Shown: positions 7,399 to 27,723 of the stretch, one piece after another | How the letters are laid out: the number at the start of each line of letters is the position of its first letter | Position numbering within the stretch: position 1 is the first letter of the stretch | Origin: Candidatus Solincola quzhuomuensis | Lineage (GTDB): Bacteria; Actinomycetota; Geothermincolia; Geothermincolales; RBG-13-55-18 | DNA length: 40,834 nt | Direction: 5' to 3' | NCBI GenBank assembly: GCA_015711855.1 | Contig: JACVJF010000014.1 | Location: 1 to 40,834, forward strand | Position numbers and translations under genes: made by a program | The notes under the pieces: model-generated | Told to the model about the DNA's origin: nothing | Database searches by the model: none | What the model saw: the letters and a program-made list of their open reading frames with translations, nothing else

Positions 7399-8130
7399 TC
7401 AGACCTTTTCCAATCGGAGGTCGCCCTTCACCCCCAGTCGGCTTCCCATGATGAGAAGACACCCGTGCACGCCCTCCAGCGCGTTAACCCTGTCCAGGGC
7501 CTCCTCCATCCTCCCCGGATCCTTGGCCAGGTTACCCAGCAGTGTGGCGGCGGCGTCCGCCAGGGAGGCGCTTTCCGCCACCACCAAGGCCGCGTCGGCC
7601 CTCCCGGCACTGTAGGAGGGCCCCACGGTGGCCGAGGAGGTGCATATGCCTATCCCTTCAGGAGGAGTGGGAGGGACCACCAGGGCCAGCTTGCCGCTGA
7701 GGGGCGATTCTCCGGCGAAGACGCCGATGCGGACCTTTCGGGTCGCGAGCAGGAATATGTCGCCGCCGTTCTCCACCATTACCTCGGGAGATAGGGGAGC
7801 CAGGTCCCTTCCCACCATCTCGGCCACCGCTCCGGCCACCGCGGCCATGGGTCCCACTCCCGTTTTGAAAGCGGCGGAGGCCATCCGCCTGATTATCTCG
7901 GGGACCTCGCCAGAAACGTCGTAAGGCCGGTAGGTGGTACGAAAAAGCGGCTGACGAGTTATGAACTCCTCCAGCTCGCTCCGGTGGCGGGAAAGCGACC
8001 GGTAAGCCTCCTTGGAGAGGTCCCGGCGCGCCCAGATGAAAAGGTCGCTTTCCTTCAACCTCACTTGGAAGGATACGAGCCCGGCGGCCTTCGTCTCCTC
8101 TCGGTAAAAGCGGTGTATGTACTCCCTCAT
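7399..8130 (-). CDS. UPF0280 family protein (ApbE-like fold family)
   Basis: MREYIHRFYREETKAAGLVSFQVRLKESDLFI...YDVSGEVPEIIRRMASAAFKTGVGPMAAVAGAVAEMVGRDL...ENGGDIFL matches the UPF0280 pattern. The ORF starts at 8241 but homologous sequence begins at M38. Confidence 0.8.
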   Translation of the reverse strand: MREYIHRFYREETKAAGLVSFQVRLKESDLFIWARRDLSKEAYRSLSRHRSELEEFITRQPLFRTTYRPYDVSGEVPEIIRRMASAAFKTGVGPMAAVAGAVAEMVGRDLAPLSPEVMVENGGDIFLLATRKVRIGVFAGESPLSGKLALVVPPTPPEGIGICTSSATVGPSYSAGRADAALVVAESASLADAAATLLGNLAKDPGRMEEALDRVNALEGVHGCLLIMGSRLGVKGDLRLEKV

Positions 8131-8294
8131 CGACGTCTCCGTTTGGGTCCCCTCTTCGGTCGAGGACCTTTCACCGGCAACATGCGTCTCCCCCTCTATC
8201 CAACCGATATCCACTAGGTGAACAGAGGGATTTCCCGACACGCGCCGGGGACAAAGAGCGGTCGCGCCGGGTCTTCCGGGAGGGTTATCGACGC

Positions 8295-8522
8295 CTATTC
8301 TTCCTTGCTTTTACGGTCCTCCTCCCCGGCCTTGCGCCTGGTGATGACCACCAGGGTGACTACCGCGGCCAGGATGGCCAGCCATATAGCGGCTATGGTG
8401 ACCACCAGCCGGACGGGACTTCCCCCTCCACTTTCTCCTTCCTGCCGGGCAAGTGCGGGACCCATGCTGCTGAGGAGGAAAAAAGCGACCAGGACGACCG
8501 CCACCAAGGTCCTCTTACCCAT
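8295..8522 (-). CDS. Small secreted/membrane protein (signal peptide plus one TM)
   Basis: MGKRTLVAVVLVAFFLLSSMGPALARQEGE...VVTIAAIWLAILAAVVTLVVITRRK; GGGGGTG ribosome-binding sequence just upstream of ATG 8522. Confidence 0.65.
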   Translation of the reverse strand: MGKRTLVAVVLVAFFLLSSMGPALARQEGESGGGSPVRLVVTIAAIWLAILAAVVTLVVITRRKAGEEDRKSKEE

Positions 8523-8575
8523 ACACACCCCCACGTACTACTCGCTCGTCAACCGGACTATTCCCCTTCGCAACC

Positions 8576-8998
8576 CTAAAGGAGCCTCATGATGAGCAGG
8601 AAGACGAGGGTCACCGCTATGGCCAACGCTCCCAGGGCGAGGTCGCGGTTGAGGCGCTGCATGGCCTCGGGCAAGAGGCGCCGCGTCTCTCGACGAAGCC
8701 TCCTCCAGTCCCTTCGCAACCCGACCCTGGCCCTCTTTTTCGCTTTGGCGTACCTCCACCCCCCCTCGATCAGGAAAGCTTGGAACCATCTGGCGGCGCG
8801 CGTGTACCAATACTCCACCTTCGTTTCCTTGGGCACGCGCAGGGAAAAGGGGTCGAATTTGAAAAGCTTCAACTGGAAAAGGTCGGAAGCGGCCGCATAC
8901 AAGATGACCGCGATCCCGGCCATGGCGGCGACGAAAGCGGCGAAGATGTCCCTGGCCAGATCGTTTTCCATGGCCACCATCCGAATCGCGTTCACCAT
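8576..8998 (-). CDS. Small membrane protein homologous to the C-terminal arm/TM of the adjacent NuoL/MrpA-like subunit
   Basis: 140 aa, N-terminal TM, basic amphipathic region, C-terminal TM. C-terminal LALGALAIAVTLVFLLIMRLL vs IAVGALVIAVSLTLFLIMRLL in the neighbouring 714 aa protein (14 of 21 identical by eye). Confidence 0.7.
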   Translation of the reverse strand: MVNAIRMVAMENDLARDIFAAFVAAMAGIAVILYAAASDLFQLKLFKFDPFSLRVPKETKVEYWYTRAARWFQAFLIEGGWRYAKAKKRARVGLRRDWRRLRRETRRLLPEAMQRLNRDLALGALAIAVTLVFLLIMRLL

Positions 8999-9119
8999 GC
9001 TCCATCCCCGTCCTTCAGCTTGGACCGAGTACCGAAACCTTGGTCCTTCCCTCCGGTCCGCACAAGGAATTTCTTTACTATAAGAAAATATATACGCCCT
9101 ACGCCCCTGCCGCCTTCGC

Positions 9120-11264
9120 TCACAGGAGCCTCATGATCAGGAAAAGGGTGAGCGATACGGCGATCACCAGCGCTCCCACGGCGATGTCTCCTTGATACTC
9201 TCTAATCCTGGGCATGAGTTCCGCGCTGGCCTCCCGATAAGCCCTGACCGCCGCCTCCCGGATAAAGGATGCCGGCCGAGAGGTCAGAGAGGGATAAACA
9301 ACCTCCCTCACCGTCGTCACCACGGCCCTGGCCCCCTTCTTGCAAGCGGTCACCAAACCCTCCTTCAGCGGGGCGTAAGCGCGTTTTCCCCACCACAGAA
9401 CCGCCAGGGAACTCCGCGCTCCCCGCAGGTACCAGAAATCCACTCCTAACCAGCGGGGAAGCCGGAAGCGGAAGACGTCCGGTCCCACCCGCCGCCTGCC
9501 CAGGATATCGGGCCAAGCACCCAGGAAGAACAGGCTTAAGCCTATGGCCAGGGGGACGAATATCTCCTTCACGTTTGACCAGAGAAAGATGGGTGTCCGT
9601 GCCAAGTGCTCCACGTAATGGACTTCCAGGCCCGGTACCGTCCCCGTCGCTGGACCGATGAGCCTCCGCAGCAAGATGCCGGGAAAGAGGCCGTTGAAAA
9701 GCACCCCGCCTGCCAGGATACCCGCGCCCAGGAGCATCCACGTCGGCGCTTCCCTCACCTCCATCAGGTGATGGGCTCGCTCCGGAGAGGGCCGGCGGAA
9801 AAAGGTGTAGTAGGTCATCTTGGTTATGTAGGCGATGGTCCCTCCGCTGGTTATGATGAACATGACCTCCGCGGCCTTCACCCATCCCGCCGTGGCCAGG
9901 TGAGCTCCTTCCGCCAGATGGTGAGACTCCAGGATGGCGTGATGTAGGAGGGTCTTGGAAACGAACCCGTTGCCCAAGGGAATACCCATGATCCCCAAGG
10001 CGGAAATGCACCAGAAAAAGGTGGTCAGGGGCATGCGCTTCCAAAGGCCTCCCAGCTTGAACATGTCCAGCTCGTGGGCACAATAGAGCACGGAGCCGGC
10101 GGCCAGGAAGAAACATCCCTTGAACAGAGCGTGGTTGATGATGTGGTAAAGGCTTCCACCCATGCCCATGGCCCCTTCTCCGCCCAGAAAACCCAAACAA
10201 CCTATCCCGAAGAGTATGTACCCCATCTGGCTGACGCTGGAGTAGGCCAGGGTACGCTTGATGTCCGTCTGTACCAGGGCTAGGAGCATGCCCGTGAACA
10301 TGGTGGCCACGGCTATCCAGATGACGGCGAAACCCAACATGCGCACGTCGGCGGCCAGGCCTCCCGCGGCATGGACCATCGCCTCGTTCCCATGGGTCAC
10401 CGCGGCGTGCCCCGCCGCCGTGTGGGACACCGGAGCCTGTAAGAAAGAGAGCACCGTGCGCAGGATACCGTAAGCCCCGGCCTTGATCATCACCCCGGAG
10501 AGGAGGGCGCTGGCCGGGGAGGGAGCCGCCGGGTGGGCATCGGGAAGCCACACGTGCAGGGGGACCATGCCCGCCTTCACCCCGAACCCCGCTATGAGGA
10601 GCACCACCGCCACCACCTTGAAGGGGCCGCCAAGCCAGGCGCTTCCCGTGAGGGGCCGGAAGGAAACGGTCCCGGCGTATCCCAAGTACAGAAATATGCC
10701 GCCGACGAGGAGCAGGCCGCCGATCACGGTCAGGGATATGTATTTGGCGGCCGCATCCCGCGCCTTCCTGGTCTCGGAGTGGATGACCAGGAGATAGGCC
10801 AGGAGGCCCATGGCCTCGAAGAAGAGGTACAGGCTGAAGAAATCCCGTACCGTGAAGACGCCCAGCGTCGCCGCTTGGGTGAGGAGCATGAAGAGGAAGA
10901 AGCGGGTCCGTTTGTGCTCGTGATCCATATACCGGAAGGCGTGCAGGGCCGCGGCGAACCACAAAAGAGAGGCGAAGAAGGCGAAGAAGGCGCTTACGGA
11001 ATCCACCTCCAGGCCGCAGGAAAACCGCTCTCCCAGGCGCATGAAACCGAGGTCGAAATAAACCGGACCCCGTCCCAAAACTCGGGAGAGCATGGCCAAG
11101 ACCACCACCAGCGTGGCGCCGGTGGAGACAACCGCCGTCCAGTTGCGCAGCCGCGGTCTTCGCTCTCCCGCGGCCAAAGTCCCCAATCCTCCCAGGAGGG
11201 GCAGGGCCAAAGCCAGGGCGGGGAGGATGGAGTAGGCCAGTATGGTAACCTTTTCCTCGTGCAA
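9120..11264 (-). CDS. Proton-translocating NADH dehydrogenase/Mrp antiporter-like membrane subunit (NuoL/MrpA/HyfB-like)
   Basis: GVKAGMVPLHVWLPDAHPAAPSPASALLSGVMIKAGAYG antiporter-family motif; multi-TM; C-terminal arm plus extra TM. Start codon would be TTG. Confidence 0.85.
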   Translation of the reverse strand: MHEEKVTILAYSILPALALALPLLGGLGTLAAGERRPRLRNWTAVVSTGATLVVVLAMLSRVLGRGPVYFDLGFMRLGERFSCGLEVDSVSAFFAFFASLLWFAAALHAFRYMDHEHKRTRFFLFMLLTQAATLGVFTVRDFFSLYLFFEAMGLLAYLLVIHSETRKARDAAAKYISLTVIGGLLLVGGIFLYLGYAGTVSFRPLTGSAWLGGPFKVVAVVLLIAGFGVKAGMVPLHVWLPDAHPAAPSPASALLSGVMIKAGAYGILRTVLSFLQAPVSHTAAGHAAVTHGNEAMVHAAGGLAADVRMLGFAVIWIAVATMFTGMLLALVQTDIKRTLAYSSVSQMGYILFGIGCLGFLGGEGAMGMGGSLYHIINHALFKGCFFLAAGSVLYCAHELDMFKLGGLWKRMPLTTFFWCISALGIMGIPLGNGFVSKTLLHHAILESHHLAEGAHLATAGWVKAAEVMFIITSGGTIAYITKMTYYTFFRRPSPERAHHLMEVREAPTWMLLGAGILAGGVLFNGLFPGILLRRLIGPATGTVPGLEVHYVEHLARTPIFLWSNVKEIFVPLAIGLSLFFLGAWPDILGRRRVGPDVFRFRLPRWLGVDFWYLRGARSSLAVLWWGKRAYAPLKEGLVTACKKGARAVVTTVREVVYPSLTSRPASFIREAAVRAYREASAELMPRIREYQGDIAVGALVIAVSLTLFLIMRLL

Positions 11265-19619: not shown

Positions 19620-22349
19620 TCAATCCGAGGACACGAAACTCATCCGCTCCATGTCCGGTCCGGTGACTATGCGTACCGCCGCCACCTTGAGTTCCGGTAT
19701 CTTGGCCACCGGATCCAGAGCCGGGTTGGTAAGGGCGTTGGCCGGTGACTCCCCGAAATGGAAGGGGATGAAAACCACTCCCGGGGGCACCTTCTCCGTG
19801 ATCCTGGCCTTGACCTTTATGGCCCCGCGTCTGGATTCCACGGCCACCTCCTGCCCGGCGATCACCCCCAGCTTCTCCGCATCCTCGGGATTTATCCACA
19901 CCCGGTTCTCGGGAACCAGCTCGTTGAGGGGCTTTATGCGCCGGGTCATGGTGCCGGTGTGGTAGTGGACGAGCAGCCTTCCCGTGGTGAGGACCAGCGG
20001 GTATTCCTCGTCCGGCTCCTCGGCCGGAGGCTTGTAATCCACCGGACTGAACTTTCCCTTTCCCCTGGTAAATTTATCCACATGGAGTATGGGAGTCCCA
20101 GGATGGTCCGGAGAGGGGCACGGCCAGCGCAGCTCTCCGAGCTCCTCCAGCCTCTGGTAGGAGATCCCGGCATAGGAGGGGGTCAAGGAGGCTATCTCCT
20201 CCATCACCTTGGCCGCCGTGACGTCCCCCATGTCGTAACCCAGCCGCGCCGCCAGCTGGGCGATGATCCACGAATCCTCCTTCGCGTCTCCTGGCGGTTC
20301 CACCGCCTTCCGTACCCTCTGCACCCGGCGATCGGTGTTGGTGAAGGTGCCTTCCTTCTCGGCGAAGGAGGCGGCGGGCAGAACAACGTCCGCGTAGCGG
20401 GCGGTCTCGGTCAGGAAGATATCCTGGACCACCAGGAAATCCACCTTCTCCAGTGCCTCCTTAAGGTGCTTGATGTCCGGGTCGGATAGGAGCGGGTTCT
20501 CCCCCATGATGTAGAGCATCTTGACCTCGCCTCGGAGAACGGCGTCCATCATCTCCACGACCGTTAGTCCCGGGTTCCCGGGAAGATAGTCCACCCGCCA
20601 GGCCTTCTCGAACGTCTCCCTGACTTGGGGATCGGACACGGGCCGATATCCGGTGAACACGTTTGGTAAGGCCCCCATGTCACAAGCTCCCTGCACGTTG
20701 TTCTGACCCCGCAGTGGGTTCACGCCCGCTCCTTCCTTGCCCAGGTTCCCGGTGAGCAAGGCCAGGTTGGCCAGAGAGAGGACGTTATCCACTCCGGTGG
20801 TGTGTTGGGTGATGCCCATGGCGTAGACGATGGCCGCGCGTTCGGCTCCGGCGAAGGTCCGCGCGGCGCGCCTTATGTCCTCCGCGTCCACCCCACAGAT
20901 CTTTGCCACCCTCTCCGGCGGGTACTGCTCCACCACCTTCCTGAACTCCTCGAAGCCCTCGGTGCGCTCGCGGATGAACTCCTCATCCGCCAAGCCCTCG
21001 GAGAGGATGACGTTCATCATCCCGTTGAGCAGGGCCACGTCGGTGCCCGGACGATGGCGGATCCATTGGTCAGCGTAATAGCAGAGACGTATATGCCGGG
21101 GCTCGGCAACGATGAGCTTGCAGTCGTTCTTCATCACCGCCCGCTTGATGCGCAGCCCCACTATGGGATGCCCTTCCGTGGTGTTCGAGCCTATGACCAA
21201 GATGCACTCAGCCTTCTCCAGATCGTCGATGGAATTGGTCATGGCCCCGCTTCCGAAAGCCGTCGCCAGACCGGCGACCGTTGAGCTGTGTCATAAACGG
21301 GCGCAGTGGTCGACGTTGTTGGTGCCGACCACCGCGCGGGCCAGCTTCTGCAGGAGGTAGTTCTCCTCGTTGGTGCACCGTGCGGAGCTGAGGAAGGCCA
21401 TTCCGTCCGGTCCCTTTTCGTCCAGAACCTTATGGATGCGGTTCGCTATCGCTCCCAAGGCCTCTTCCCACGTCACCGGAACCAGTTCTCCGTCCTTCCT
21501 CAACAAAGGGGTGGTAAGGCGCTCAGGATGATGGACGAAGGCATAACCATAGCGTCCTTTTACGCACAGGTTTCCTTGCCCCGGTCCCACCATAACCGGC
21601 GAGGAGACCTCGACGATCTCCCCATCGCGCACGTGAAGGTCTATCTGGCACCCACAACCGCAGTACGGACAAGTGGTGCGTACTTTTTTCACCTGCCAGG
21701 GCCTACCCTTTCCTTTGGAGGGTATGGAGATGATGGCCCCGGTGGGGCAGGTGGACACGCACTGCCCGCAGAACTCGCAGGGCGTCTCGGTTAGGGGTCG
21801 GTTATAGGGGGTCCCGGGCACGGCTTCGAACCCCCGGTTGACGAAATCGTAGACCCCTACTCCCTGTACCTCGCGGCATATGCGGATACAACGCCCGCAG
21901 AGGACGCACTTGTCGTAGTCCCGCTCGATGAGGGGATTGTCGGCCAGCACCTCGTAATGGTGTTGTTCCCCGGCGAAACGGGTGTCCTTTACCCCGTACT
22001 CGTAGGCCAGGTCCTGGAGCTCACAGTTGCCGGCGCTCTCACAGGTCATGCAGTCCTTGGGGTGGTCCGAGAGCAGGAGCTCGATGATGGTGCGCCGGAT
22101 GCGCCGCAGCTCCTCCGTGTTTGTGCGCACCACCATGCCGTCGGTCACCCTGGTGGCACAGGAGGGCAGGAGTCCCCGTGCGCCCTCCACCTCCACGATG
22201 CAAATGCGGCAGGCACCGTAAGGCTCCATGCGTCGGTCGTAGCAGAGGCTGGGGATGCGTATTCCCGCCTCCCGCGCCGCCTCCAGGATGGTGCGGTCGG
22301 AGGTGGTGACCACGTCCACGCCGTCTATGCTCAAGCGTACCTGCTCCAT
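19620..22349 (-). CDS. fdhA: Selenocysteine-containing NAD-dependent formate dehydrogenase alpha subunit (in-frame TGA at 21293..21291)
   Basis: ORFs 21291..22349 and 19620..21242 are in the same frame. Junction reads V D H C A R L (TGA) [19 protein letters not shown], aligning with the Sec active site of FdhF-type enzymes. N-terminal [2Fe-2S], His-Cys3 and 2x[4Fe-4S] motifs, then the molybdopterin domain CPYCGCGC. Confidence 0.93.
21262..21278 (-). promoter_or_regulatory. Bacterial SECIS-like hairpin within fdhA
   Basis: Minus strand GTCGCC-GGTCT-GGCGAC: perfect 6 bp stem, GGUCU loop starting 18 nt after the TGA. Confidence 0.88.
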
Positions 22350-22359
22350 CCCGACCTCC

Positions 22360-24144
22360 TCACTCCGCGTAGATGGCCTCTTCCGGACAACGGCTGAGGC
22401 AGAGCTTGCACCTTATGCATACCTCGGGATCGATGAAATGCGGTTCCTTCTTCTCGCCCGAGATGGCCCCCACCGGGCAGATCTTGGCGCAGGCACCGCA
22501 ACCGGTGCATATCTCCCGGTTGATCCTCACCGTTATCAGGGCGGGGCAGACGCCCGCCGTGCACTTATGGTTGAAGATATGGTCCTCGTACTCGTTGCGG
22601 AAATAACGGAGGGTGGTGAGGACCGGGTTGGGTGCCGTGCCTCCCAGAGCGCAGAGGCTGGCTGCCTTGATGTCCGCGGCCAGGATCTCCAGCCTCTCCA
22701 GGTCCTCCGGCTCCCCCTTCCCCTCGCAGATACGGGTGAGTATCTCCAGCATGCGCTTGGTCCCCAAACGGCAGGGAACGCACTTCCCGCAGGACTCCGC
22801 TTGGGTGAAGGACAGGAAGTAGCGGGCCAGGTCCACCATGCAGGTGGAGGAATCGGCCACGATCATGCCGCCCGATCCCATGATGGCTCCGGTGGCGGTG
22901 ATGGCCTCATAGTCCACCGGTGTGTCCAGGAGGCTGGCGGGAAGACATCCGCCGGAGGGCCCCCCCAGCTGCACGGCCTTGAACTCCTTTCCTTCCCTCA
23001 CACCACCACCCACGTCGAATATAACCTGTCGCAGGGTATAACCCATGGGGACCTCGGCCAATCCGCTGCGACGGACCTTTCCGGCCAGGCAGAAGACCTT
23101 GGTCCCCTTGCTCTTCTCCGTTCCCAGCTCGGCGTACTTGTCCCCCCCGTTGGCGATTATCCAGGGCACGGCCGCCAAGGTCTCCACGTTGTTGATGTTG
23201 GTGGGCTTGCCCCACAACCCCTCGTTGGCCGGGAAAGGAGGCCTCGGCCGAGGCATGCCCCTCTTGCCCTCGATGCTGGCTATGAGAGCGGTCTCCTCGC
23301 CGCACACGAAGGCGCCGGCTCCTTTCTTGATCTTGATGTCGAAGTTCCAGTCGGTACCGAATATCCTCTCTCCGAGGAAACCGCGCTCCCGACAGGCGGC
23401 GATGGCTTTTTCCAGCCGCTTCAGGGCTAAGGGGTATTCCGCCCGACAGTAGATATATCCCTGGGAGGCCCCGATGGCGTAGCCGGCTATGATCATGCCC
23501 TCGATGACGGCGTGCGGGTCTCCCTCCAGGACGGAGCGGTCCATGAAGGCCCCCGGGTCGCCCTCGTCGGCGTTGCACACCAGGTATTTCTGATCCCCCT
23601 TGGCCTTACGGGCGAATCCCCACTTGGTCCCGGTGGGGAAGCCGGCTCCGCCGCGACCCCGTAAGCCGGATCTGCTCACCTCGTCGATGATCTGCTCCGG
23701 GGTCATGGTGGTCAACGCTTTCCGCGCCGCCTCGTACCCTCCCACGGCGATATATTCATCAATGCTCTCCGGGTTGATGTTCCCGCAGTTGCGCAGGACT
23801 ATGCGGTGCTGGTTGGCCAGGAAGTCGCCCTCCCCGGCGGTGGGGTCGTCGCTTCGACGCACCACCCAGTCCTCCAGCACCTCTCCGGCGGAAACGGCCT
23901 CCAGTAACTGGGGTACCTTCTTGGGGGTCAGGTCGCCGTAGACCACTGACCTCCCCTCGGGATAATGGACCTCCACTATGGGCTCCCGGAAGCAGAAGCC
24001 CATACATCCGGCGATGTCCAGTTCCAGGTCGTACTTCCCCGCGGAGAGCTCCCTCTCCAGCGCCTCCTTCACTGCCGCCGCCCCTGCGGCAATGCCGCAG
24101 GTGCCGTAGCCCAGTACCAGTTTGGTCCTCCCGTTCCCGTTCAT
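22360..24144 (-). CDS. NuoF/HydB-like NADH-binding flavoprotein subunit of formate dehydrogenase
   Basis: N-terminal thioredoxin-like domain, SGLRGRGGAGFPTGTKW, NADH/FMN motifs GAGAFVCGEETALIASIEG, ESCGKCVPCRLGTKRM, two C-terminal 4Fe-4S motifs. Confidence 0.94.
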   Translation of the reverse strand: MNGNGRTKLVLGYGTCGIAAGAAAVKEALERELSAGKYDLELDIAGCMGFCFREPIVEVHYPEGRSVVYGDLTPKKVPQLLEAVSAGEVLEDWVVRRSDDPTAGEGDFLANQHRIVLRNCGNINPESIDEYIAVGGYEAARKALTTMTPEQIIDEVSRSGLRGRGGAGFPTGTKWGFARKAKGDQKYLVCNADEGDPGAFMDRSVLEGDPHAVIEGMIIAGYAIGASQGYIYCRAEYPLALKRLEKAIAACRERGFLGERIFGTDWNFDIKIKKGAGAFVCGEETALIASIEGKRGMPRPRPPFPANEGLWGKPTNINNVETLAAVPWIIANGGDKYAELGTEKSKGTKVFCLAGKVRRSGLAEVPMGYTLRQVIFDVGGGVREGKEFKAVQLGGPSGGCLPASLLDTPVDYEAITATGAIMGSGGMIVADSSTCMVDLARYFLSFTQAESCGKCVPCRLGTKRMLEILTRICEGKGEPEDLERLEILAADIKAASLCALGGTAPNPVLTTLRYFRNEYEDHIFNHKCTAGVCPALITVRINREICTGCGACAKICPVGAISGEKKEPHFIDPEVCIRCKLCLSRCPEEAIYAE

Positions 24145-24662
24145 TCTTCCTTCTCCCCGCTCTCTCCCATGTACTTCTTGAGGACCTTGCGCACGTTGGC
24201 CGGTTTCAGTTTACCGTGGGTATCCTCGTCCACGATCATGATGGGCGAAAGCGAACAGGCGCCCACGCACATCACCGATTCCACGGTGAACTTCCGATCC
24301 GGGGTGGTCTCACCGTCCCTTATGCCCAGGATGTTGTGGATCTCCTCGGAGATCAGCTCCGCGCCGGCCACGTGGCACGCGGTACCGTGGCAAACCCTGA
24401 TCAGATGCTCGCCGATGGGCTGGAGGCGGAACTGGGTGTAGAAGGTGGCCACTCCGTAGAGCTGGCTGAGCTGGTAACCGGCCCCCTTGGCCAGGGCGCG
24501 CATGATCCTTTCGTCCAGGTATCCGTAGGCCTCCTGGGTGTCCTGCAGGAGAGGTATTAAGGCTCCTTTCTCCCCTCGGTAACGCTCCAGTATCTCCTGT
24601 AGGGGCCCTAGATCGTCCACATCGGCGAAGCGTTGGGAGCACTTACAAGTCTCGCCCTCCAT
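24141..24662 (-). CDS. NuoE-like [2Fe-2S] subunit of formate dehydrogenase
   Basis: IPLLQDTQEAYGYLDE...LYGVATFYTQFRLQPIGEHLIRVCHGTACHVAGAE...CVGACSLSPIMIVDED: Cys pattern of NuoE. Confidence 0.94.
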   Translation of the reverse strand: MEGETCKCSQRFADVDDLGPLQEILERYRGEKGALIPLLQDTQEAYGYLDERIMRALAKGAGYQLSQLYGVATFYTQFRLQPIGEHLIRVCHGTACHVAGAELISEEIHNILGIRDGETTPDRKFTVESVMCVGACSLSPIMIVDEDTHGKLKPANVRKVLKKYMGESGEKEE

Positions 24663-24836: not shown

Positions 24837-25724
24837 TCAGAGTTCCAGATAGGAATGGGCGTAAAGGGTCTCCTCGGTGAGTACCTTCCAGGTCTTGAGG
24901 AGCTTGACCACCGTGGGATCGCTCTCGTCCACTTCCTCGCCCTTCACGATCTTCTCCACGATCTGGTATTCCTCGTTCTTGTTCACCACGCCCATCAGCG
25001 CCTCGTCGTTGGGATCCACGATGGCCGCCGTAAGCCCCTTGGCCATGAGCACCGCTAAGAGGGTGCGGTTGAGCAGGCTGCACAGCTGGGGGTCGGGCAC
25101 GCCGTTGGAGACGTTGGAAAGGCCCACCACCGTTCCCGGCTGCGGGTCAAACTCGGCGAAGACACCCTGGAGCATGTCCATGGAATCGATGAGGGCGTGT
25201 ACTTGGTCCTGGGTCACGGCGATGGGGAGGACGATAGGGTCGATGAGCAGCTTGTTGAGGGGTATCCCGTACTCCTGGGCGGCCATGATGATGTTGTAAG
25301 CGACCTCCACCCTCTCGTTGGCGTCGCGCGGCACGTTGCCCTGGGCGTTGAGGACCAACCCCACTACCCAAGCGTCGTGCTCCACGGCCATAGGCATGAG
25401 CCTCTCGATGCGCTCCGGCTGGGAGGATATGGAATTGATCATCACCTCGCGGTCCTTGACCGTCTCCAGGCCGGCCTTCATGGCCTCGATGTTCATGGTG
25501 TCCAACGCCAAGGGGACGTCGGTCACTTCCTGGACCGCCTCCACCACGAAGCGCATCCGTTCCGGTCCTTCCTTGGTGGCCGGGCCCAGGTTGATGTCCA
25601 ACCAATTGGCCCCTCCCTCTACCTGTAGGAGCGCCATCTCCTGGATGGGCTTCTTGTCGTACTCCTTCATGGCCTGGCCGATCTTCTTCATCATCACGTT
25701 GACCTTCTCGCCGATGATCAGCAT
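24837..25724 (-). CDS. acsE: 5-methyltetrahydrofolate:corrinoid/iron-sulfur protein methyltransferase
   Basis: MLIIGEKVNVMMKKIGQAM...LQVEGGANWLDINLGPA...VPLALDTMN...NSISSQPER: pterin-binding MeTr pattern; context among acs genes. Confidence 0.92.
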   Translation of the reverse strand: MLIIGEKVNVMMKKIGQAMKEYDKKPIQEMALLQVEGGANWLDINLGPATKEGPERMRFVVEAVQEVTDVPLALDTMNIEAMKAGLETVKDREVMINSISSQPERIERLMPMAVEHDAWVVGLVLNAQGNVPRDANERVEVAYNIIMAAQEYGIPLNKLLIDPIVLPIAVTQDQVHALIDSMDMLQGVFAEFDPQPGTVVGLSNVSNGVPDPQLCSLLNRTLLAVLMAKGLTAAIVDPNDEALMGVVNKNEEYQIVEKIVKGEEVDESDPTVVKLLKTWKVLTEETLYAHSYLEL

Positions 25725-26662
25725 TTCCTTCCTCCTTGGTCGCTCTCGCGGTCGACGACTTTCCGCCCTTCCTTACCTTTATTTTCCATCAATTCCCTCG
25801 CCCGGTAGGAACTGCGTACCAGGGGAGCGGAGGCCACCGCGGGGATGCCCGCCTCCTCCGCCTCCTCCTTCAGTTCCGCGAACTCCTCCGGCGAGAGGAA
25901 CCTCTCCACTTCCAGCTGCTCCCTCCCGGGGCGCAGGTACTGGCCGATGGTGAGCATATCACAACCCACGGCGGCCAGGTCCCGGAAAAGTCTCCGCAGC
26001 TGCTCCCTGGTCTCGCCCAACCCCACCATTACCCCGCTCTTGGTCCGTACCCCGGGGTCGTACGTCCGGGCGAGCTCCAGCAATCTAAGGGACCTCCGAT
26101 AATCGGCACCGGGCCTCACCCGAGAATAGAGCTCCTTAACCGTCTCCAGGTTGTGATTCAGGACCTCCGGTCGTTCCTCCAGGACCAGCATCAAAGCTTC
26201 GGCATCTCCCCGGAAATCGGGTACCAGCAACTCGATCGTCGCCCCCGGGAGACGCTCGCGCAACTGCTGCGCCGTGGCGGCGAAATGCGAGGCGCCGCCG
26301 TCGGGCAGGTCGTCCCGGGTGACGCTGGTCACCACCACGTGGCTCAACTTCAGGGCGGCGGCCGCCCTGGCCACCCGCTCCGGCTCCTCCGGGTCCAGGG
26401 GTTGGGGAACCCCTTTGGGGACCCCACAGAAGGCGCAGTTCCTGGTACAGATACCACCCAAGATCATGAAGGTGGCCGTGCGCCTGGAAAAACATTCCAT
26501 ACGATTGGGGCACTTGGCGCTGCGACACACGGTGTTCAACCGGAGGTCTTCGAGGAGGGTCTCCACCTCTCGCAGATCGCTTCCGGCGAGGACGGGGTGG
26601 TAAAGCCACCGGGGCATGCGCGTCCGATAATGATCTCTCCCCGCTTCCGCCAACCTCGTCAT
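25718..26662 (-). CDS. lipA: Lipoyl synthase (radical SAM)
   Basis: N-terminal cluster motif CRSAKCPNRMEC and radical SAM CTRNCAFC; HVVVTSVTRDDLPDGGASHFA; SGVMVGLGET. Confidence 0.95.
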   Translation of the reverse strand: MTRLAEAGRDHYRTRMPRWLYHPVLAGSDLREVETLLEDLRLNTVCRSAKCPNRMECFSRRTATFMILGGICTRNCAFCGVPKGVPQPLDPEEPERVARAAAALKLSHVVVTSVTRDDLPDGGASHFAATAQQLRERLPGATIELLVPDFRGDAEALMLVLEERPEVLNHNLETVKELYSRVRPGADYRRSLRLLELARTYDPGVRTKSGVMVGLGETREQLRRLFRDLAAVGCDMLTIGQYLRPGREQLEVERFLSPEEFAELKEEAEEAGIPAVASAPLVRSSYRARELMENKGKEGRKVVDRESDQGGRKC

Positions 26663-27723
26663 GCGTTTTCCTCCGAGGAATCGCCGGCAGTCTTTCCGCG
26701 CAGGGCGGCGGAGACCTCTGCCGCCAGGCGGTAGGCCCTCTCCGCCCGCTCCTCGCTAACCCCCTCCAGCCCGCAGGAGGGGGTGATCATAACCCTTTCC
26801 CGCAGGAGGTCCTCGTCCACGCCGCGGGAGGCCAAAAGGGTCACCCCTTCCTCGAAACGACGCACCAGGTCCTCGACTTCCTCCCCGTCCACCGCGGCGG
26901 TGTTGGGAACCAGCCCCCAGGCCAGTATGCCGCCTCCCTCGAGGAAACGGTTGAGCTCCTCCGGGTAGAGGGCCAGACTATCCATGTATCCGTAGGCGTC
27001 GAAGCTCACCACGTCCAGTCCGGCCCGGAAGAGCAGCGTCCAGTCAGTGTTCCCGCAGCAGTGGGCCCCGGTCAGGCACCCCAAGCCCTCCACGCACCCC
27101 CGTATAGAATCCACTACCTGGTCGCGTCCTACGCTGACCAGGGCGGATCCCACCGATACAAGGTAGGGTTCGTCGAGAAAGATGAGCACCTCCTCGCAGG
27201 CCCCGGTATTCCGCAAAAATCCCTCCATCCAACGGGCTTTCAGATTGAGCAGCTTGACCATCACCTCGGCCATCTGGTCGTCGTAGAGGATGGGCCGTTT
27301 CCCGCGATCCAGAACCGCAAGACCGAAGCTGACCGGCCCGGTCACCTGTCCCTTCAAGAGAGGATACCTCCTCCCCTCCGCGGCCACCCTACGCCTCAGG
27401 GCATACAGCCCCGAGGCGTAATCCTCGCTTACGGCCGCCCATTCCAGGTCATCCTCCAAATAGGCCCTGAGGACCTCCTCCATCTCCGCCAGGAGGTCGC
27501 GACCGGTATCGCAGAACACCCTGCGGCCCGCCGGGTCCACCACCACGCCGGGAAGCCCCTCGCTGTATTGGGCGTACATGTTCTCACGGAAATCTCGCCT
27601 GGGGAGCTGCGGCCAGGCAGGTGCCTCCGTGAGGTGCCTGAGGGTAAGGGCACAGGCCTCCTCCGCGTCGCGATGGGGGAGGCTACCGATGGCCGTGGCC
27701 GTGAAAGACGGCCGGAAGGTCAA
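26659..27723 (-). CDS. MetE C-terminal-domain-like (core-MetE/UROD superfamily) methyltransferase
   Basis: ATAIGSLPHRDAEEA N-terminus typical of MetE_C/UROD-fold proteins; candidate zinc ligands in GAHCCGNTDW and ITPSCGLEG; lacks the MetE N-terminal domain (354 aa). Confidence 0.75.
   Translation of the reverse strand: MTFRPSFTATAIGSLPHRDAEEACALTLRHLTEAPAWPQLPRRDFRENMYAQYSEGLPGVVVDPAGRRVFCDTGRDLLAEMEEVLRAYLEDDLEWAAVSEDYASGLYALRRRVAAEGRRYPLLKGQVTGPVSFGLAVLDRGKRPILYDDQMAEVMVKLLNLKARWMEGFLRNTGACEEVLIFLDEPYLVSVGSALVSVGRDQVVDSIRGCVEGLGCLTGAHCCGNTDWTLLFRAGLDVVSFDAYGYMDSLALYPEELNRFLEGGGILAWGLVPNTAAVDGEEVEDLVRRFEEGVTLLASRGVDEDLLRERVMITPSCGLEGVSEERAERAYRLAAEVSAALRGKTAGDSSEENA

Follow-up and report, generated by a model that had tools for sequence, protein, structure and literature searches.

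Does the TGA codon in the middle of an apparent formate dehydrogenase (FDH) gene of Candidatus Solincola quzhuomuensis end the protein, or is it read as selenocysteine (Sec)? The window, i.e., the whole stretch of 40,834 nucleotides that was analysed, contains two open reading frames (ORFs) which follow each other in one frame, on either side of this codon. A preliminary description of the DNA had taken them for a single selenoprotein gene, fdhA. The analysis favors the same answer, with a probability of about 0.97: the locus is one fdhA gene, which encodes the catalytic subunit of a Mo/W formate dehydrogenase that NuoE/NuoF-like partners connect to NAD(P)H, and its UGA 353 is read as Sec. The features of the gene are the following.

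19620..22349, minus strand: fdhA, Sec-containing formate dehydrogenase alpha subunit, 909 residues, with a predicted Sec 353
21291..21293, minus strand: in-frame TGA, codon 353, at the position of the Mo/W ligand according to the alignment and the homologs
19620-19622, minus strand: terminal stop TGA of fdhA
22354..22361, minus strand: Shine-Dalgarno-like GAGGAGGT before the ATG of fdhA, overlapping the stop of the preceding gene (direct reading)

The gene starts with the ATG at 22349, behind GAGGAGGT. Standard calling gives two ORFs, as had been expected: 21291-22349 (minus strand, 352 aa) and 19620-21242 (minus strand, 540 aa counted from the first ATG). They are in one frame, the TGA at 21291-21293 is all that separates them, and the coordinates and peptide context first given for this arrangement were correct on re-reading. 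Read-through of this codon yields a product of 909 residues; the only TGA inside its frame is codon 353, and a second one ends it. No stop interrupts the 556 codons that directly follow TGA 353, and the ATG at which the 540-aa ORF seems to begin encodes an internal methionine of fdhA. In a profile search the product matches TIGR01591, the formate dehydrogenase alpha family, with 906.1 bits (cut-off 666.25), and its domains are, in order, Fer2_4, NADH-G_4Fe-4S_3, Molybdop_Fe4S4, Molybdopterin and Molydop_binding.

A scan of the window found 36 in-frame TGAs with at least 60 open codons on each side. Inspection of this list and of the family matches showed that, of the 36, only the TGA of fdhA connects two parts of a single recognisable protein; among the in-frame TGAs of the window with long flanks there was no other convincing Sec gene. 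A megablast search against plasmid records gave no match.

Comparison with twelve homologous loci (at least 78% identity) shows that dN stays much below dS on either side of the TGA. For the closest congener, which is 92% identical, dN/dS is 0.043/0.81 before the TGA and 0.057/0.53 after it. The second half of fdhA is thus unlike a pseudogene or an untranslated stretch.

The codon at the site was collected from two sources, named genomes that span many phyla and 118 genomes of relatives. Of 126 distinct homologous nucleotide contexts, 95 have TGA and 31 a Cys codon (TGC or TGT), and none has a codon for another residue (0/126), which agrees with the earlier statement that homologs have Sec or Cys here. 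Chance and base-calling error are ruled out, since the 95 contexts that share this TGA come from many phyla. A sequencing error, which the preliminary description had named as a possible objection, is also excluded, because independent genomes have the TGA too; one congener has two copies of the gene (L105 and L139), the nearest relatives at 92% and 91% identity, and both carry it. Another member of the same family, 82% identical (L109), has TGC at the site, though its genome (G012) retains tRNA-Sec and SelB. Two FDH paralogs from the window's own genome (G000), at G000:C41:406-3069 (L134) and G000:C15:22061-24079 (L135), also have TGC at the catalytic site. The first of these Cys paralogs retains GTCGCCGGTCTGG, a probable SECIS remnant, and paralogs similar to the two carry TGA in several relatives.

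In an ungapped alignment with E. coli FDH-H (1aa6), codon 353 falls on residue 140, which is known to be Sec and a ligand of Mo, so that the stop is indeed at the catalytic position, as first proposed. The structure 9t1s has X, a non-standard residue, exactly at FdhA position 353, and 7qv7 and 6tg9 have Cys there. Among solved structures, the best relatives with almost full-length coverage are alpha subunits of FDHs, e.g., 9wxb and 6tg9. The product had also been called FdhF-type. This holds for the catalytic site but not for the whole protein, which is not a bare FdhF: it is of the long FdhA/FdsA type, with a NuoG-like N-terminus and NuoE/NuoF partners. The genes for these partners and other neighbors are listed below.

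22360..24144, minus strand: NuoF-like FMN/NAD(P)H-binding partner subunit with an extra ferredoxin domain (Complex1_51K, NADH_4Fe-4S, Fer4)
24141..24662, minus strand: NuoE-like 2Fe-2S partner subunit (NF005722, 151.8 bits, above the cut-off)
24837-25724: methyltransferase-like gene
25718-26662: LipA

The NuoF-like gene reaches 514 bits with TIGR01959, below the cut-off of 559, and is above the cut-off for NF010120. The NuoE-like gene also matches the formate dehydrogenase gamma family NF004638, with 123 bits, below the cut-off. The two genes overlap by 4 bases. The operon is NuoE-NuoF-FdhA, with the NuoG-like iron–sulfur N-terminus on FdhA, and it lies within a Wood-Ljungdahl cluster; besides the methyltransferase-like and LipA genes, this cluster holds those of MetF and its DUF5981 partner, a CdhD-type protein, ACS, CODH subunits, FolD and a RACo-type activator. 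Between the LipA and MetF-type genes there is an ORF of 354 aa (window 26659-27723, minus strand), which has no Pfam domain and gives a weak methionine-synthase-like match (21 bits).

The preliminary description had deduced that the genome must encode selA, selB, selC and selD, and all of them are found in the same assembly.

C45: tRNA-Sec with anticodon TCA, 81.8 bits
C45, adjoining tRNA-Sec: SelB, 374 bits
C45 and C67: SelA, broken by a contig break, the C-terminal part at the end of C45 and the N-terminal part at the end of C67 (349 and 307 bits)
G000:C67:1731-2654 (L137): SelD, 380 bits

The gene order on C45 and C67 would fit a single operon, selD-selA-selB-selC, that the break between the contigs has divided. 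SelD has an in-frame TGA of its own, in the active-site motif SGUAAK, and is itself a probable selenoprotein. Among the relatives, tRNA-Sec or SelB occurs in 36 of the 38 genomes that have a TGA-type FDH, versus 2 of the 9 that have only sense-codon FDHs (p = 2e-5); in this tally, made by hand, a TGA-type FDH is one that is at least 50% identical and spans the site, and in the more distant ones the TGA is presumed to lie at the site. Neither tRNA-Sec nor SelB was found in the draft assemblies G061 and G117, which have a TGA-type FDH. Together with the 909-residue TIGR01591 product, the purifying selection on both sides and a site that holds only Sec or Cys, this machinery argues for the proposal of a single selenoprotein gene.

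The RNA behind the TGA can form a hairpin of the bSECIS type, a feature absent from the preliminary description.

21238..21296, minus strand: bSECIS-type element, matching Rfam SECIS_3 over its full length with 44.6 bits (E = 1.2e-9), below the gathering score of 63
21262..21278, minus strand: apical hairpin of the bSECIS, GUCGCC-GGUCU-GGCGAC, with the loop at 21268-21272, from covariation and loop conservation

The SECIS_3 score is also under the gathering score in every Sec relative that was tested. When 15 homologs were compared, the scores were 36–54 bits for Sec members and 25–39 bits, or no match, for Cys members. The folding energy of the single fdhA sequence is no better than that of shuffles (z about 0), so that stability alone lends the hairpin no support; covariation and codon bias were used because the folding energy failed to separate the hairpin from shuffled sequences. 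The stem GUCGCC/GGCGAC is paired at 99.4% over 28 distinct sequences, with compensatory changes at columns 21:33 (C-G/G-C/U-A) and 24:30 (C-G/A-U). The covariation is 0.443, versus 0.161 ± 0.023 after shuffling, and the slid controls are all worse than the real stem. The two covarying pairs connect third codon positions, so that the protein sequence does not account for the covariation. Of the 95 TGA contexts, 94 have the loop GGTCT, versus 5 of the 31 Cys contexts (p = 7e-21), and the Gly+7 codon is GGT in all 94 TGA homologs compared versus 9 of 30 Cys homologs (p = 5e-17); both p values are nominal, since the sequences are related. These patterns indicate that the hairpin behind the TGA is under a constraint at the RNA level, which is mostly absent behind Cys.

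If the TGA were a genuine stop or a sequencing error, fdhA would be a pseudogene or two truncated fragments. This would fit the outcome of standard ORF calling and a hairpin whose stability is not unusual, but it is very hard to reconcile with a TGA that 95 distinct homologous contexts share at this codon, with purifying selection that is similar before and after the codon, with the Sec machinery of the genome and with an RNA-level constraint confined to TGA homologs; we give this explanation almost no weight. It is just as improbable that two polypeptides are made, the second by re-initiation at the internal ATG (21242), and assemble into the enzyme. This in-frame ATG is the 17th codon past the TGA, but a methionine is found at +17 in 31/31 Cys homologs too, where no break exists, and its invariance there shows that the ATG at 21242 encodes an ordinary Met. 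Moreover, a split at this point would leave out the conserved segment HSSTVAGL as well as the metal ligand.

The TGA could also be translated without Sec, if a changed code or a suppressor tRNA made UGA 353 a codon for Cys, Trp or Gly. Cys does occupy the site in homologs, and the genome has an unusual tRNA-Cys with the shape of a tRNA-Sec; however, the anticodon of this tRNA-Cys is GCA, which reads UGC and UGU. TGA terminates fdhA itself and the NuoF-like gene, which argues that the code is not reassigned, and a dedicated tRNA-Sec(TCA), SelB and a bSECIS are present. The likelihood of such a decoding seems negligible, and the reading of UGA 353 as Sec is kept in what follows.

Established knowledge of FdhA and SelB suggests how this gene would work. 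The hairpin, which starts about a dozen bases past the UGA, would recruit SelB carrying Sec-tRNA-Sec, and the ribosome would insert Sec 353 at the UGA with no stop. Sec 353 would then ligate the Mo/W atom. Electrons would pass along the iron–sulfur chain to the NuoF-like flavin subunit, and the same knowledge points to the coupling with NAD(P) and to the direction of the reaction: the enzyme would supply formate from CO2 (or oxidise formate) where the methyl branch of the Wood-Ljungdahl pathway, whose genes lie alongside, begins.

The closest known counterparts are the Sec-containing FdhA of Clostridial/Moorella type, which belong to NAD(P)-dependent FDHs, have a similar length and have TGA at the same codon. 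The Moorella mulderi homolog (L075) is 53% identical over residues 1–894, with TGA at the site. Moorella FdhA is also found in a Wood-Ljungdahl context. The present gene differs from this type in its Actinomycetota host and its NuoE-NuoF-FdhA operon, the choice of W or Mo and the preference for NADP or NAD being unreadable from sequence. The structure 6tg9, FdsA from Rhodobacter capsulatus, matches residues 4–896 with 794 bits and likewise has NuoE/NuoF-like partners, but it has Cys at the ligand position. E. coli FDH-H, or FdhF (1aa6), shares the catalytic domain; unlike FdhA, it is devoid of the N-terminal iron–sulfur domains, and it is part of formate hydrogenlyase.

The Wood-Ljungdahl pathway, with fdh, has already been described in deep-branching uncultured Actinobacteria (PMC7325909). 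The clusters of the classes UBA1414 and RBG-13-55-18 contain CODH/ACS, MetF, FolD and fdh, as here, and ligA and lipA are both in the gene list of a figure of that paper and in the window. Neither selenocysteine nor selenium occurs in its main text. FdhA is the most widespread bacterial selenoprotein, found in 822 organisms (PMC5029168), and selenoproteins of Actinobacteria, as well as the replacement of Sec by Cys in FdhA with remnant SECIS structures, are already described (PMC1794560). The fdhA gene of this uncultured actinobacterium is therefore a further example of a well-known type.

The sequence evidence settles a question of annotation: in this actinobacterial lineage, the enzyme with which CO2 reduction begins is, as predicted, a selenoprotein. 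For such a gene, automatic calls give two pieces, and reconstructions of the pathway may score it as missing or broken. The supply of selenium is then a likely factor in the carbon metabolism of the lineage. In the surrounding lineage, a single genome may hold this enzyme in both a Sec and a Cys form, which is a useful set for the study of Sec-to-Cys replacement.

The unusual tRNA-Cys (GCA) is located at G000:C74:11574-11662 (L002:1501-1589) and passes the Rfam cut-off for tRNA-Sec, with 58 bits. Inspection of the alignment shows that it has U73, a variable arm that is long, and an acceptor stem of 8 bp in which pairs covary. Its anticodon does not read UGA, and it has thus no bearing on the conclusion about fdhA. 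This extra tRNA-Cys was found in 16 of the 98 Actinomycetota genomes searched, including that of the window (the others are L154-L168). Such a tRNA-Cys was reportedly described by Mukai et al. in 2017. It resembles the selC* tRNA-Cys known from Firmicutes, Thermodesulfobacteria, Nitrospirae and Proteobacteria, a list in which the review does not name Actinobacteria, and in the members L160, L161 and L163 the T-stem contains an additional A, similar to the bulge that the review describes (PMC7609411). A pattern search of the own genome had suggested that it is the only tRNA-Cys of the lineage, an idea that was dropped: the relatives have an ordinary tRNA-Cys too, beside tRNA-Gly(gcc). The ordinary one was not found by pattern in the G000 assembly, probably because of an assembly gap.

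In a relative (G032), a second selB-like gene (7792-9672, L211, 371 bits) lies about 35 bases behind the tRNA-Sec-shaped tRNA-Cys (C16:7670-7757). This genome also carries ordinary selB and tRNA-Sec, and the arrangement is like that of the selC*-selB* pairs which have been reported in deltaproteobacteria. The structure of the tRNA-Cys and this second selB directly behind it are the two observations from which one could imagine that the tRNA shares the Sec hardware, SelB or SelA handling both Cys and Sec at hairpin-marked sites, and that FdhA sites would switch between Sec and Cys according to the selenium supply; we regard this as very unlikely.
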